A DNA stretch of 64,000 bases from assembly GCF_018613715.1 (NCBI RefSeq), contig NZ_JAGGPT010000003.1, forward strand, positions 1-64,000, read 5' to 3'. Positions within the stretch are counted from its first letter, which is position 1. Every line of letters starts with the position of its first letter. Under the pieces are notes generated by a model. That model saw only the letters and a program-made list of their open reading frames with translations. It was not told the origin of the DNA and ran no database searches. A program made the position numbers and the translations under genes. Source of the stretch: Chryseobacterium sp. ISL-6. GTDB lineage: Bacteria; Bacteroidota; Bacteroidia; Flavobacteriales; Weeksellaceae. This document shows positions 14,956-54,288 of the stretch, in pieces.

Positions 14956-15180
14956 TTACTTTAATTTAAAATCAAATAGTTCCTGTGGATGTACATCTAG
15001 TCCTTTGGCTAACTCTTGAATAGTAGAGATTCTAAGATCTGTTTCCCCTTTTTCTATTTTACTAATATTACTATGATCTACATCACATTTTTGAGCCAAC
15101 TCTCTATAACTCAAATTCAGCTTTTTTCTAAATATCTCAACTCTTTTACCAAATGCTATTCTAAATTCTAATTTATTCAT
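14956..15180 (-). CDS. XRE-family transcriptional regulator
   Basis: The 74-residue protein (start chosen at ATG 15178-15180, MNKLEFRIAFGKRVE; a frame 13 codons longer exists) is a single Cro/C1-type helix-turn-helix: RVEIFRKKLNLSYRELAQKC, then DHSNISKIEKGETDLRIST with the recognition helix, ending PQELFDFKLK. It is divergent from the sigma-dCas12f operon, with about 400 bp between the starts, so it could regulate that operon. No ligand or dimerisation domain is present. Confidence 0.75.
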   Translation of the reverse strand: MNKLEFRIAFGKRVEIFRKKLNLSYRELAQKCDVDHSNISKIEKGETDLRISTIQELAKGLDVHPQELFDFKLK

Positions 15181-15267
15181 TACGGTTGACTTTGATAAGA
15201 CAAAATGATGAGATTTCAATAAATTTTTGTAGTCGAATTAACCTACATAAAGAAAAATGTTTTATAT

Positions 15268-15299
15268 TTGCTAAATAAGTTACAATAAAGGTAACTTTG
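15268..15299 (+). promoter_or_regulatory. Flavobacterial promoter for the leader of the sigma-dCas12f operon
   Basis: TAACTTTG at 15292-15299 matches the Bacteroidetes -7 consensus TAnnTTTG. A TTG at 15268-15270 lies 21 bases upstream and could serve as -33. Transcription would start near 15305, giving a structured leader of about 270 bases before the sigma gene. The spacing is a little long, so the -33 assignment is weak. Confidence 0.45.
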
Positions 15300-15342
15300 C
15301 AATACTTCAAAAATAATAATCGAAGCTATTGCTTAGATTCTC

Positions 15343-15448
15343 GACTAGAAAACTGGTAATTTTTATGTGTACGAGAAGATAAGTAAATTAGCTCACGACC
15401 GCGGCGTGGGCTCTCTTATCGTACACGGGTATACCAGTACCTCTAGTC
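15343..15448 (+). ncRNA. Structured leader: nested long hairpin upstream of the sigma gene
   Basis: Four stems nest in order: GACTAG 15343-15348 with CTAGTC 15443-15448; ACTGGTA 15352-15358 with TACCAGT 15432-15438; GTGTACG 15367-15373 with CGTACAC 15420-15426, with ATAAG/CTTAT inside it; and AGCTCACG 15390-15397 with CGTGGGCT 15405-15412 closing a 7-base loop. This degree of pairing is far more than chance and signals a folded RNA or a cruciform-prone DNA. It contains the 12-base sequence shared with the guide region at 17570-17581. It may be a regulatory leader, the guide's target, or part of the guide RNA itself. Confidence 0.55.
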
Positions 15449-15577
15449 AATAAGTTGAGTTCCACGCTTTTTCTTTTGTGCAAAATTTAAAGAATAGTGG
15501 TATGAATAATAAGTAGAATTCTTCTTAGAGATCTAAGCAGTTCCTTCCAGCAATAATTTAGCTAAAAAACGCTGCTT

Positions 15578-16393
15578 ATGAAAAGAACAGACTCTTTACC
15601 CCGGAAGTTGAGCAATCTTCAGTTGTACGAACTGCTGAAAAAAGGCAATCCGACCGCTCTGGAACACATTCATCTCCGTTATAAAAGACTTCTTTTCTGG
15701 GTTGGATGGCAGGTGCTTAAGGATGATTTTGTAGTGGACACTATTGTTCAGGATACATTCCTTAAATTATGGCTACACCGTGACACCATTGAAACGCCTA
15801 ATCATATTACTGGCTTTTTACGGTTTGTTATGAAAAGAGATTGTATATCGTATGTCACTGCTCCAAAAAATAAATTCAACCGCTTAATGGCTTCTCTTGA
15901 CAGTTTTGAGAATTATCAGGATTATCTTGCAGGTTACGATCCTTTGAAAGATAAAGAGTATTTACTTAGCCAGAAATCCGATCAGAAAAATTTCGATGAA
16001 GTCAAAAAGGTTTTACCCGTTCTGGATCCCAAAAGGAAACACCTGATTGAACTTTGCCTTGAATATGGCTTTCAGCACAAACCTATCGCAGAAGCAATGG
16101 GAAGCAGTGTGAAAGACATTAGCAATGAGGTGAGCAGAGCTATAAATGACCTTCGGAAAATTCTTAATAGAAGTTCTTTTGAACAGCCACAGGAAAAAGC
16201 TTTCGATAATAAGGAACAGAGAGAAAAACTCAGCAGTCAACAACTTGAGATCATGAAAAGAAGGTTTGATCAGAAATCCTCTTTCAAGGTTATTGCCCAA
16301 GAACTCAAATTACCTGAAAAGGAGGTTCATCGGGAATTTCTGTATGCATATCAATATCTACAAAATCAAAACACTTCTGAAATACCTCTTTGA
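15578..16393 (+). CDS. ECF-type sigma factor with extra C-terminal HTH, partner of dCas12f
   Basis: The 271-residue protein has a sigma-2 region (about 25-95: RYKRLLFWVGWQVLKDDFVV, VQDTFLKLWLHRD, GFLRFVMKRDC) and a sigma-4-like helix-turn-helix (about 140-195: LDPKRKHLIELCLEYGFQHK, then AEAMGSSVKDISNEVSRAI). Ordinary ECF factors end there, near 180-200 residues. Here 75 more residues repeat the sigma-4 pattern (SQQLEIMKRRFDQKSSFKVI, AQELKLPEKEVHREFLYAY), so a second DNA- or protein-binding HTH is likely. No anti-sigma gene is adjacent. The stop is 1 bp from the dcas12f start, so the two products are surely made together. It should direct RNA polymerase to sites bound by the dCas12f complex; that role is inferred from the gene pair. 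Confidence 0.85.
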   Translation: MKRTDSLPRKLSNLQLYELLKKGNPTALEHIHLRYKRLLFWVGWQVLKDDFVVDTIVQDTFLKLWLHRDTIETPNHITGFLRFVMKRDCISYVTAPKNKFNRLMASLDSFENYQDYLAGYDPLKDKEYLLSQKSDQKNFDEVKKVLPVLDPKRKHLIELCLEYGFQHKPIAEAMGSSVKDISNEVSRAINDLRKILNRSSFEQPQEKAFDNKEQREKLSSQQLEIMKRRFDQKSSFKVIAQELKLPEKEVHREFLYAYQYLQNQNTSEIPL

Positions 16394-16394
16394 A

Positions 16395-17489
16395 ATGGAA
16401 AAATCCACGATTACACTTACCCGAAAAATTCAGCTACTGATCGATCTTCCTGCAAATGAAAAAAACGAGATGTGGGAAAAACTTTATCGGTATCAGAACC
16501 GCTGTTTCCGGGCAGCTAATTTAATTGCTTCCCATCTGTATGTTCAGGAAATGATTAAGGATTTCTTTTACCTCACAGAAGAAATCCAATATAAGCTGGC
16601 CGATGCAAGCAAAGATGAAATGGGAATGTTCACACGTTCGAAAACAAATTCAACTGCACGGATGGTCTTTGACCGTTTTAAAGGAGAAATCCCCACCGAT
16701 ATTCTGGGAAGCCTAAATAACACGATTCAATCAACCTTTTCTAAAAACAAAGCCAACTACTGGCAGGGCTTAAAGTCTTTGAGGAATTTTAAAAAAGACA
16801 TTCCAATTCCGCTTCCAGTCAAATGCATCAGTAAAATGAAATATGATTTACAAAAGAAAGCATTTTGCTTCAACATGTTTGCTATTCCTGTTAAAACGTA
16901 TTTAGGTAAAGACTTCTCTGATAAGCGATTGATAATGGAACGCCTCTTAAGAGAAGAGATAAAACTTTGCACATCGCAAATACAACTGAAAGCCGGGAAA
17001 ATCTTTTGGCTTGCAGTATTTAAATTTGAAAAAGAAGAACACATTTTAAAACCCGAAATCATTGCAGAAGCTTCCCTGTCTCTGGAACATCCTATCGTAG
17101 TAAAAACCAACAATGTGCGAATGAATATAGGCTCGAAAGAAGAGTTTTTATACCGCAGGCTTGCAATTCAGGCAAGTCAAAAAAGGATTCAAACCGGCAT
17201 CGCCTTTGCCCGTTCAGGAAATGGAGCCAAACGGAAACAAAAAGCTCTTTATAAAACAGAAAATTTGGAAAGCAGGTATGTAAGTCATCGACTTCATTTG
17301 TATAGCAGGAAGCTTATCGATTTCTGCATTCAGCACCAGGCGGGCACACTTATTCTTAAAAATCAGGAAGACAAGATAGGAATTGCAAAAGAACAGGAAT
17401 TTGTGCTTCGCAACTGGAGTTATTATGAATTGCAGACCAAAATAAAATATAAAGCAGAAAAGGCTGGTATCGAATTAATTATTGGATAA
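16395..17489 (+). CDS. Nuclease-dead Cas12f/TnpB homologue (dCas12f)
   Basis: The 364-residue protein starts at ATG 16395-16397, 1 bp after the sigma stop. It has the TnpB/Cas12f layout: a helical REC-type N-terminus with QNRCFRAANLIASHLYVQEM, the wedge-like segment around 130-225, then the RuvC core with EEFLYRRLAIQASQKRIQ (250-266), GNGAKRKQKAL (276-285), SHRLHLYSRKLIDF (297-310) and NWSYYELQTKIKYKAEKAGI (340-359). The catalytic sites are gone: the RuvC-I position reads HPIVVKTNNVRMNIG (232-246) without the Asp, the RuvC-II strand reads TLILKNQED (318-326) with Lys where the Glu should be, and the protein ends before RuvC-III and the zinc finger. It should bind DNA with a guide RNA but not cut. 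Confidence 0.88.
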   Translation: MEKSTITLTRKIQLLIDLPANEKNEMWEKLYRYQNRCFRAANLIASHLYVQEMIKDFFYLTEEIQYKLADASKDEMGMFTRSKTNSTARMVFDRFKGEIPTDILGSLNNTIQSTFSKNKANYWQGLKSLRNFKKDIPIPLPVKCISKMKYDLQKKAFCFNMFAIPVKTYLGKDFSDKRLIMERLLREEIKLCTSQIQLKAGKIFWLAVFKFEKEEHILKPEIIAEASLSLEHPIVVKTNNVRMNIGSKEEFLYRRLAIQASQKRIQTGIAFARSGNGAKRKQKALYKTENLESRYVSHRLHLYSRKLIDFCIQHQAGTLILKNQEDKIGIAKEQEFVLRNWSYYELQTKIKYKAEKAGIELIIG

Positions 17490-17590
17490 ATGAAAAAAAT
17501 AACGAGGGTGCTTGTACACCCGTAAGGTGAGGTCATGAACACTCACTAAATACTTAGTAGTATATACAACGGCGTGGGCTCCTTTTTTTT
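17490..17590 (+). ncRNA. Candidate guide RNA of the dCas12f, scaffold plus short guide
   Basis: Immediately after the dcas12f stop are three small hairpins: GGGTG 17506-17510 with CACCC 17517-17521; GTGAG 17527-17531 with CTCAC 17542-17546; ATACT 17550-17554 with AGTAT 17559-17563. Then comes ACAAC (17566-17570), GGCGTGGGCTCC (17571-17582) and T8 (17583-17590). TnpB omega-RNAs lie at exactly this place, and Cas12f repeats end in a similar CAAC just before the guide, so GGCGTGGGCTCC is the probable guide and T8 the termination point. The guide would be short, as in other nuclease-dead TnpB systems. Exact ends need RNA data. Confidence 0.6.
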
Positions 17591-52566: not shown

Positions 52567-54288
52567 TTAGAACAGATAATACAACTGAGTTAAAGGAAGT
52601 TTTTCAGCAGGCTCACAAGTGATGTATTCACCATCAACAGTCACTTTATAATTTTCAGGATTCACTTCAATTAAAGGAGTTTTATCGTTGTGGATGAGGT
52701 CAGCTTTAGAGATGTTTCTACAGTTTTTTACCGGTAGGATCATCTTTTCCAGCTTAAATTCTGCTATAGAACCATTGTCTATAGAAACCTGAGAAACAAA
52801 AGTAGCACAGGTTCCATATTTTGCTCTTCCATGCGCACCAAACATATTTCTGTAAATAACAGGCTGCGGTGTTGGAATAGAAGCGTTCGGATCACCCATT
52901 TTGCTGGCGATTACCATACCCCCCTTGTAGATCATTTCTGGTTTCACACCAAATAATGCAGGTCTCCAGATCACTAAATCTGCCAATTTCCCTTCTTCAA
53001 TAGAACCTACATATTCCGAAATTCCGTGGGCAATAGCCGGGTTGATCGTATATTTTGCTACATATCGTTTAGCACGGTAGTTATCATGTCCGGAACCTTT
53101 ATCCTCATCAAGCTGACCCCGTTGTTCTTTCATTTTACTGGCAGTCTGCCATGTTCTGGTAATGACTTCTCCTGGTCTTCCCATAGCCTGAGAATCCGAG
53201 CTCATAATACTGAACACACCCATATCGTGAAGAATATCTTCAGCGGCAATCGTTTCGGGACGGATACGGGAATCTGCAAATGCAACATCTTCAGGAATAT
53301 TTTTACTTAAATGATGACAAACCATCAGCATATCCAAATGCTCATCGATGGTATTAATGGTATAAGGACGTGTAGGGTTAGTAGATGCAGGCAGGACATT
53401 CGGATACATCGCGGCTTTAATGATATCCGGTGCATGACCTCCCCCAGCTCCTTCAGTATGGAAGGTGTGGATTACTCTTCCATTAATGGCACGCATCGTA
53501 TCTTCAAGAAAACCTCCCTCATTCAAAGTATCAGTATGGATAGCCACCTGAACATCATATTTGTCTGCCACTTTTAATGCAGCATCAATCGTTGCTGGTG
53601 TTGCACCCCAGTCCTCATGAATTTTAACACCCAAGGCTCCGGCTTCAACCTGCTCTTCAATCGGTTCTTCAGCCGAACAGTTTCCTTTTCCAAAGAATCC
53701 AAGGTTCATAGGATATTCTTCAGCAGCCTCCAGCATTCTCTGGATATTGAATCTTCCTGGTGTAACCGTTGTCGCGTTGGTTCCGTCATTAGGACCTGTT
53801 CCACCACCAATCATAGTTGTAATCCCACTATATAAAGAAGTTTCAATCTGTTGTGGGCAGATGTAATGAATGTGAGTGTCAATTCCTCCTGCTGTTACAA
53901 TATATCCTTTTCCACCATGTACCTCCGTAGAAGCTCCGATGATCATATTGGGAGCGACTCCATCCATAGTGTCAGGATTTCCTGCCTTTCCGATGCCTAC
54001 AATTTTACCGTCTTTAATTCCAATATCAGCTTTTACAATTCCCCAGTGGTCGATGATCACAGCTCCCGTGATACAAAGATCCAGAACTCCTTCATCTCTT
54101 TTACGGGTTACATTTTGTCCCATTCCATCACGAACGGTTTTTCCGCCTCCGAAAACGGCTTCATCTCCATAATGGGTAAAGTCCTTTTCAATTTCAATGA
54201 TCATCTCAGTATCTCCCAAGCGGATTCTATCTCCGGCGGTAGGACCTAATATATTGGCATATTGTTTTCTATCTACGTGTAAACTCAT
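52567..54288 (-). CDS. ureC: Urease alpha subunit
   Basis: The 573-residue catalytic subunit is complete. Nickel ligands are His139 and His141 ([12 protein letters not shown]), carbamylated Lys222 ([13 protein letters not shown]), His251 ([11 protein letters not shown]), His277 and the Asp365 (SSDSQAMG). The active-site flap [10 protein letters not shown] carries Cys324-His325. It hydrolyses urea to ammonia and carbamate in the cytosol. It begins 1 bp from the ureB stop. Confidence 0.97.

Follow-up and report, generated by a model that had tools for sequence, protein, structure and literature searches.

A sigma factor-dCas12f operon of Chryseobacterium whose guide RNA matches its own leader: a probable RNA-guided autoregulator

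The window analysed here, the whole 64,000-nucleotide (nt) stretch from Chryseobacterium sp. ISL-6, carries an operon in which the gene for an extracytoplasmic function (ECF) sigma factor is followed by one for a nuclease-dead Cas12f (dCas12f) and by a predicted guide RNA (gRNA). The guide recurs in the DNA of the operon's own leader, and this candidate self-target is well supported by sequence comparison. Homology to a solved RNA-guided transcription complex, and a guide that fits the operon's own leader, make the unit a probable RNA-guided autoregulator, one that would bring RNA polymerase to that leader and likely start transcription past a terminator. New here are the predicted gRNA at the locus, the guide shared among relatives, the putative self-target in the leader, and the leader RNA family itself. 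Together they would give an RNA-guided sigma factor both its natural guide and its natural target, in a circuit that could be checked in culturable Chryseobacterium relatives. They would also link sigma-dCas12f to a structured RNA family found before SusC-type uptake operons, a major means of nutrient import in Bacteroidota.

Both proteins match the solved complex and the RuvC residues are lost, so homology places the unit within the known sigma-dCas12f kind and not on a divergent branch. In a search against the sequences of solved structures, dCas12f matched 9n9c_A, 'Nuclease-deactivated Cas12f', from end to end (E=1.4e-162, query 1-364), and the next-best Cas12f match was far behind (E=8.2e-39). 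The sigma factor matched 9n9q_C, 'RpoE', over residues 17-263 of 271 (E=3.9e-78). The PDB titles for 9n9c, 9n9m and 9n9q are 'dCas12f-gRNA complex', 'dCas12f-gRNA-DNA complex (partial R-Loop)' and 'RNA-guided transcription complex', the last being that of 9n9q; 9N9C, 9N9M and 9N9Q were released on 24 December 2025. The first-pass annotation had read an ECF sigma gene, a single base and then a Cas12f/TnpB homologue of 364 residues, and both open reading frames lie where it placed them. It had also suspected a divergent branch, the sigma factor seeming longer than usual. This suspicion is not upheld: the solved sigma has 261 residues (271 in the window) and aligns through the extra C-terminal helix-turn-helix (HTH), and with a solved partner of similar length the length of the window's sigma is no sign of divergence. 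The dCas12f lengths are 365 residues in the solved system and 364 in the window. Both Sigma70_r2 and Sigma70_r4 exceed their Pfam cut-offs in the sigma, and alignment and model give it regions 2 and 4 plus the extra HTH region. Its AlphaFold model has a predicted local distance difference test score (pLDDT) of 72.5 and a predicted template modelling score of 0.36; fold comparisons of the sigma and dCas12f models were of use chiefly for the PDB titles.

The dCas12f is a TnpB/Cas12f relative that hits the guided_TnpB profile with E=2e-14, under the family cut-off. By alignment, the RuvC Asp-Glu-Asp triad of active Cas12f/TnpB nucleases was not found in it. The RuvC-I Asp of Al3Cas12f (in VGVDLG) aligns with Ser227 (in AEASLSL); the annotation was right that this Asp is absent and wrong about its position, which is six residues before the PIVVKTNNVRM it had named. 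Its reading of Lys for Glu in RuvC-II agrees with the alignment, where the Glu falls on Lys322 (LILKNQEDK); in more distant relatives this position is Ile, Leu, Met or Val. RuvC-III and the zinc finger are missing, as it had also said, the protein ending before both, like the 365-residue solved one. The check for intact RuvC residues that it had proposed, made here by sequence alignment, thus finds both Asp and Glu replaced. Apart from full-length dCas12f homology and the lost catalytic residues, the locus shares with the dCas12f-RpoE system an RpoE-like ECF sigma directly upstream, a gRNA whose scaffold is recognised by its conservation, and guide-matched DNA 5' of a gene, namely in the operon's own leader (in trans only in relatives). 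Homology to the solved complex, lost residues, operon, conserved gRNA and own-leader match together support the annotation's proposal of an RNA-guided transcription unit.

Related proteins at E <= 1e-20 number 809, so the finding is not due to chance; the named ones among 120 listed are mostly from Chryseobacterium and Elizabethkingia. A contig scan gave 41 loci, of which 40 were kept, all from Chryseobacterium and its kin except two (Salegentibacter, Mesonia). At E<=1e-60, dCas12f is present in 23/395 genomes of an order-level set and 18/397 of a family-level set, the two results overlapping. The genome itself (5.2 Mb, 24 contigs) encodes dCas12f four times, at 87-100% identity to the query, on contigs C19 (the window), C20 (locus L010), C18 (L011) and C15 (L012), each after a 271-residue sigma gene. 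The set analysed comprises 67 loci: these four, 38 named Weeksellaceae-type and 25 Flavobacteriaceae-type, with L053 excluded (38% over 50 residues). A region resembling, by eye, a Cas9-Cas1-Cas2 locus (L012 9278-14870) lies about 5 kb away from the C15 copy.

The gRNA (17500-17590) lies directly 3' of dCas12f. It is predicted to consist of three hairpins, mostly closing with TATACAAC, then the guide and then usually a T-tract; the scaffold alignment (42 sequences, L040 excluded) has 33 invariant columns. A covariance model, R1, finds exactly four gRNAs in the own genome, one after each dCas12f and none in trans away from the dCas12f copies, and 1-4 gRNAs at each of the 25 Flavobacteriaceae-type loci. 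No known RNA family matched the gRNA. The guide begins with GGCGTGGG in 40/42 Weeksellaceae-type loci; the other beginnings are TGAGCGG (L022 = L096, and L106) and AGAGCGCC (L032 = L113). A lone gRNA 3' end (last hairpin, TATACAAC, GGCGTGGGTTTTTTT) stands near a transfer-messenger RNA gene (C21:128230-128237, minus strand, L069). Model R1 does not report this fragment, which is perhaps the remnant of a copy lost from an integration site.

The first 11 nt of the guide recur as GGCGTGGGCTC about 175 bp 5' of the sigma start codon. Within the own genome (5.2 Mb), CGGCGTGGGCTC is found in three operon leaders and in two gRNAs, five sites in all, and its reversed control nowhere. The shorter GGCGTGGG occurs at 23 sites, against nine for the control: 13 in reading frames, four in gRNAs, one in the gRNA remnant on C21, two in tRNA-Leu genes and three in leaders, the last belonging to three of the four sigma-dCas12f operons. 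Across the 67 loci, an exact guide match of at least 8 nt is found in the locus's own -1300..-850 region in 34 cases, against 18/1340 Markov-shuffled regions. The reversed guide matches at 9/67 loci, eight of these matches being T-rich. Self matches go with the leader, 30/44 loci with it and 4/23 without it by pattern. (Two leader patterns were used; each selects 44 loci, and the sets differ slightly.) The four exceptions are L118 and L119, which have another type of leader, L029, whose leader the pattern missed, and L134, whose match sits away from the usual position, probably by chance. No match is longer than the 16 nt found in L128.

At a few loci, guide and site have changed together. In L131, guide and site both read GCGTGAGT. 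In L118 and L119, an unrelated leader (GCCTTCCC and GCCTTTCCC) is paired at a similar distance with guides of that sequence, 8-nt pieces of which match by chance 5' of 7/65 other loci. These joint changes point to co-evolution of guide and site. Two related observations may be added. L118, L119, L134 and L135 (genus g99) have, before sigma-dCas12f, a second, unrelated leader with GAAAGCCTTCCC and a GGGAAGGC inverted copy. Genome G352 has an array of four gRNAs, the third of which matches 15 nt directly 5' of the start of the divergent HTH gene (L116 7016-7030, minus strand).

The leader that carries the target is about 150 nt long and present in 44/67 loci. Given 33 distinct leaders (10 of 43 were excluded from the alignment), RNAalifold proposed stems P1-P5 unaided, with 13 covarying pairs. 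In this structure 94.9% of cells are paired, against 84.0% in shuffles and 31-41% when it is slid, and 16 pairs have changed on both sides, against 10.4 in shuffles. The window's own sequence folds at -42.9 kcal/mol (15339-15456, z -5.86). A second, mutually exclusive stem is formed when the 3' strand of P4/P5 (GGCGTGGGCTCnCTTAT) pairs with a later TAAGTTGAGTTCCACGCC, followed by a T-rich stretch in 40/44 leaders; four of its pairs have changed on both sides, against 0.7 in shuffles, and its fold in the window is -25.8 kcal/mol (15402-15475, z -4.34). This predicted layout is that of an attenuator. Neither a Sigma70-type promoter nor a short-loop terminator was found near the leader. Upstream are two boxes of the form TAnnTTTG, a promoter consensus of Bacteroidetes type according to the available text of PMC6414381. 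A divergent gene similar to the window's is found by motif at 19/67 related loci. Rfam 15 gave no match up to E=1 in window 15200-15600, and none at the leader in seven trans loci at gathering score; no report of the leader family was found in the open-access PMC literature, a collection outside which most subscription papers and preprints fall.

The positions suggest how the autoregulator might work. The dCas12f would bind the gRNA and open the leader DNA at 15403-15413, and its partner sigma would recruit core RNA polymerase there. The start of transcription would lie 3' of the target, reportedly by about 46 nt, and beyond the 5' strand of the terminator-like stem (some 18 bases from 15403). 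With that strand left out of the RNA, the new transcript would escape attenuation, and sigma, dCas12f and gRNA would be made. The resulting positive feedback would depend on the signals read by the leader and by the divergent HTH protein. SusC-type operons would be additional targets in relatives, the own genome's trans leader lacking the fit. Occupancy would be expected at the operon leaders and at relatives' SusC leaders with GGCGTGGG, and none at the GGCATGAG leader. A more specific version, which we put forward tentatively and hold to be somewhat less than an even chance, is an RNA-guided bypass of an attenuator: an uncatalogued riboswitch-like leader of Flavobacteriia, normally standing before SusC-type operons, would have been taken as a landing site for sigma-dCas12f, and, the guide being a copy of the terminator 5' strand, the complex would start transcription beyond the terminator and override the leader at the own operon and, in many relatives, at SusC-type operons. 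If true, a CRISPR-type machine would have taken over an existing attenuation switch.

The leader family is wider than the operon. A covariance model finds it in at least 98/395 genomes of the order, often in several copies; the counts are lower bounds, since filters were stricter and few candidates were scored per genome. All 23 dCas12f genomes are among the 98 (own-operon leaders included), and 75 have the leader and no dCas12f. Sixty trans leaders were chosen, not randomly, from the best-scoring matches listed; with 13 more the set has 73 entries, 71 of them distinct (L170=L206, L156=L207). All but two of these (69/71) precede, on the same strand, a gene of SusC type, of a 187-residue family or of thioredoxin-like type. 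The gene behind is SusC-type TonB-linked in 35 cases, of the 187-residue family in 37 and thioredoxin-like in five, some occurring together. Thioredoxin-like and SusC genes sometimes come after the family of about 187 residues (L177:1268-1828 and 36 other distinct loci), of which the one member tested had no Pfam match. A short divergent reading frame lies 5' of 13/14 inspected leader copies, the own copy on C22 included (L159 lacks it), and HTH_3 was over the Pfam cut-off in 4/9 divergent genes tested. At L153, a Whalefall-1 RNA (RF01762, 1902-1954) lies 3' of the trans leader.

Several observations weigh against an autoregulator acting at this target. Self matches reaching 8 nt are lacking in 33/67 loci, including the paralog on C20, which has no leader, and in 14/44 leader-bearing ones. 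The own guide is mismatched at position 7 or 2 in L028, L050, L051, L122 and L127. No target was found for the guides of L022, L032 and several Flavobacteriaceae loci, and a search with one mismatch allowed gave nothing above control for those of G666/G486 (TCGCAGCTAACCC) and G381 (TTTGTGCGCCGAA). GGCGTGGG is present in 25/27 trans leaders from genomes without dCas12f and in 22/33 from genomes with it, so conservation of the target appears independent of dCas12f. Being at least as common where dCas12f is absent, GGCGTGGG is a feature of the leader, which the guide follows, not the reverse. The terminator-like pairing varies little: 98.2% of its cells are paired, and shuffles reach 96.7% because the columns hardly vary. 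Nor did a simple terminator scan (loop limit 8) report this stem. AlphaFold also models dCas12f poorly (pLDDT 50.8).

Another possibility, which we consider real but doubtful, is that the system chiefly controls SusC-type operons in trans; the operon would then have borrowed a susC-type leader, with the self match as a consequence. The leader family does stand before susC-type genes, and in dCas12f genomes 19/33 trans leaders, in 14/19 genomes, match a guide of the same genome over at least 8 nt. Published sigma-dCas12f systems reportedly act on susCD-type genes. However, the one clear trans leader of the own genome (C22:45235-45389, minus strand), before a susC/susD-like pair, reads GGCATGAGCCC, with three mismatches to the guide, and the one further copy, the fifth, is weak. 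Moreover, the guides of L118, L119 and L131 track their own leader.

Negative autoregulation is less probable still. Here dCas12f-gRNA on the leader DNA would block elongation from an upstream promoter of housekeeping type, in the manner of TldR or CRISPR interference, and the sigma would serve other targets only. The target does fall within sequence presumed to be transcribed as leader, about 100 bp 3' of the TAnnTTTG boxes, and nuclease-dead TnpB homologues that act as repressors, the TldR proteins, are known (as described in the available text of PMC13418256). But a sigma partner would be needless for a roadblock. The one-base spacing of sigma and dCas12f genes in 41/44 loci and the solved sigma-dCas12f-polymerase complex argue for initiation instead.

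It is also conceivable, if very unlikely, that the gRNA acts on RNA, pairing with the terminator 3' strand (CCACGCC) of the nascent leader and preventing termination in trans. The guide is identical in sequence to the terminator 5' strand, as such pairing would have it. Strand bias of the matches disfavours it: guide nt 1-8 match the plus strand in 29/44 own leaders and the minus strand in 0/44 (minus-strand self matches occur at 2/67 loci), and GGCGTGGG is on the plus strand of 47/60 trans leaders and on the minus strand of 1/60. In addition, CCATGC is commoner as the 3' strand (32/60 trans leaders) than CCACGC (12/60). That the locus is a functionless remnant of an IS605-type TnpB element, as the dCas12f/TnpB ancestry and the mobile look, by eye, of genes adjoining several near-identical copies might suggest, is scarcely credible, given intact reading frames and an operon, gRNA and leader conserved among proteins 59-96% identical to the window's.

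Features of the autoregulator locus are collected in Table 1. Elsewhere in the window, 53840-54135 (plus strand) matches Rfam 5_ureB_sRNA with 87 bits. This family is antisense to ureB, so a conserved urease gene may be all that the match reflects.

Table 1. Coordinates of the sigma-dCas12f operon, its leader and the adjoining gene in the window
Feature	Position	Strand	Details and basis
Divergent small Cro/C1-type regulator gene	14956..15219	-	Pfam HTH_3 E=9.2e-15; Met start near 15180
Two TAnnTTTG boxes	15263..15299	+	TATATTTG 15263-15270, TAACTTTG 15292-15299; consensus match only
Predicted structured leader RNA	15334..15485	+	stems P1-P5 and alternative terminator-like stem; covariation, model R2 E=2e-36
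Candidate guide target GGCGTGGGCTC	15403..15413	+	in P5; equals guide nt 1-11; 5' strand of terminator-like stem
Terminator-like stem, 3' strand ATAAGTTGAGTTCCACGC, and T-tract	15450..15472	+	pairing alignment, fold energy
ECF sigma gene	15578..16393	+	271 aa, TGA stop; open reading frame list, Pfam, match to 9n9q_C
Nuclease-dead Cas12f gene	16395..17489	+	364 aa, ATG at 16395; open reading frame list, match to 9n9c_A
Guide RNA scaffold	17500..17570	+	scaffold alignment; covariance model R1
Guide GGCGTGGGCTCC	17571..17582	+	followed by T-tract 17583-17590

Among known systems, dCas12f-RpoE (PDB 9N9C, 9N9M, 9N9O, 9N9Q) resembles the window's unit in full-length homology of both dCas12f and sigma, and like it lacks the RuvC residues and the C-terminal domains; the solved complex also contains a gRNA. 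In that system, transcription reportedly needs no promoter motifs to start at the guided site. TldR shares with the window's dCas12f the use of a nuclease-dead TnpB-type protein in gene regulation, and is not known to have a sigma partner. The nucleases Al3Cas12f (PDB 9nzo) and CnCas12f1 (8hr5) are related in sequence and share the fold of the RuvC part, but the window's protein has other residues in place of the Asp and Glu and lacks RuvC-III and the zinc finger. Transcription attenuators and riboswitch leaders are likewise structured, with a mutually exclusive terminator-like stem. Unlike them, the window's leader belongs to no Rfam 15 family, and its putative terminator strand is also the candidate target of a guide.

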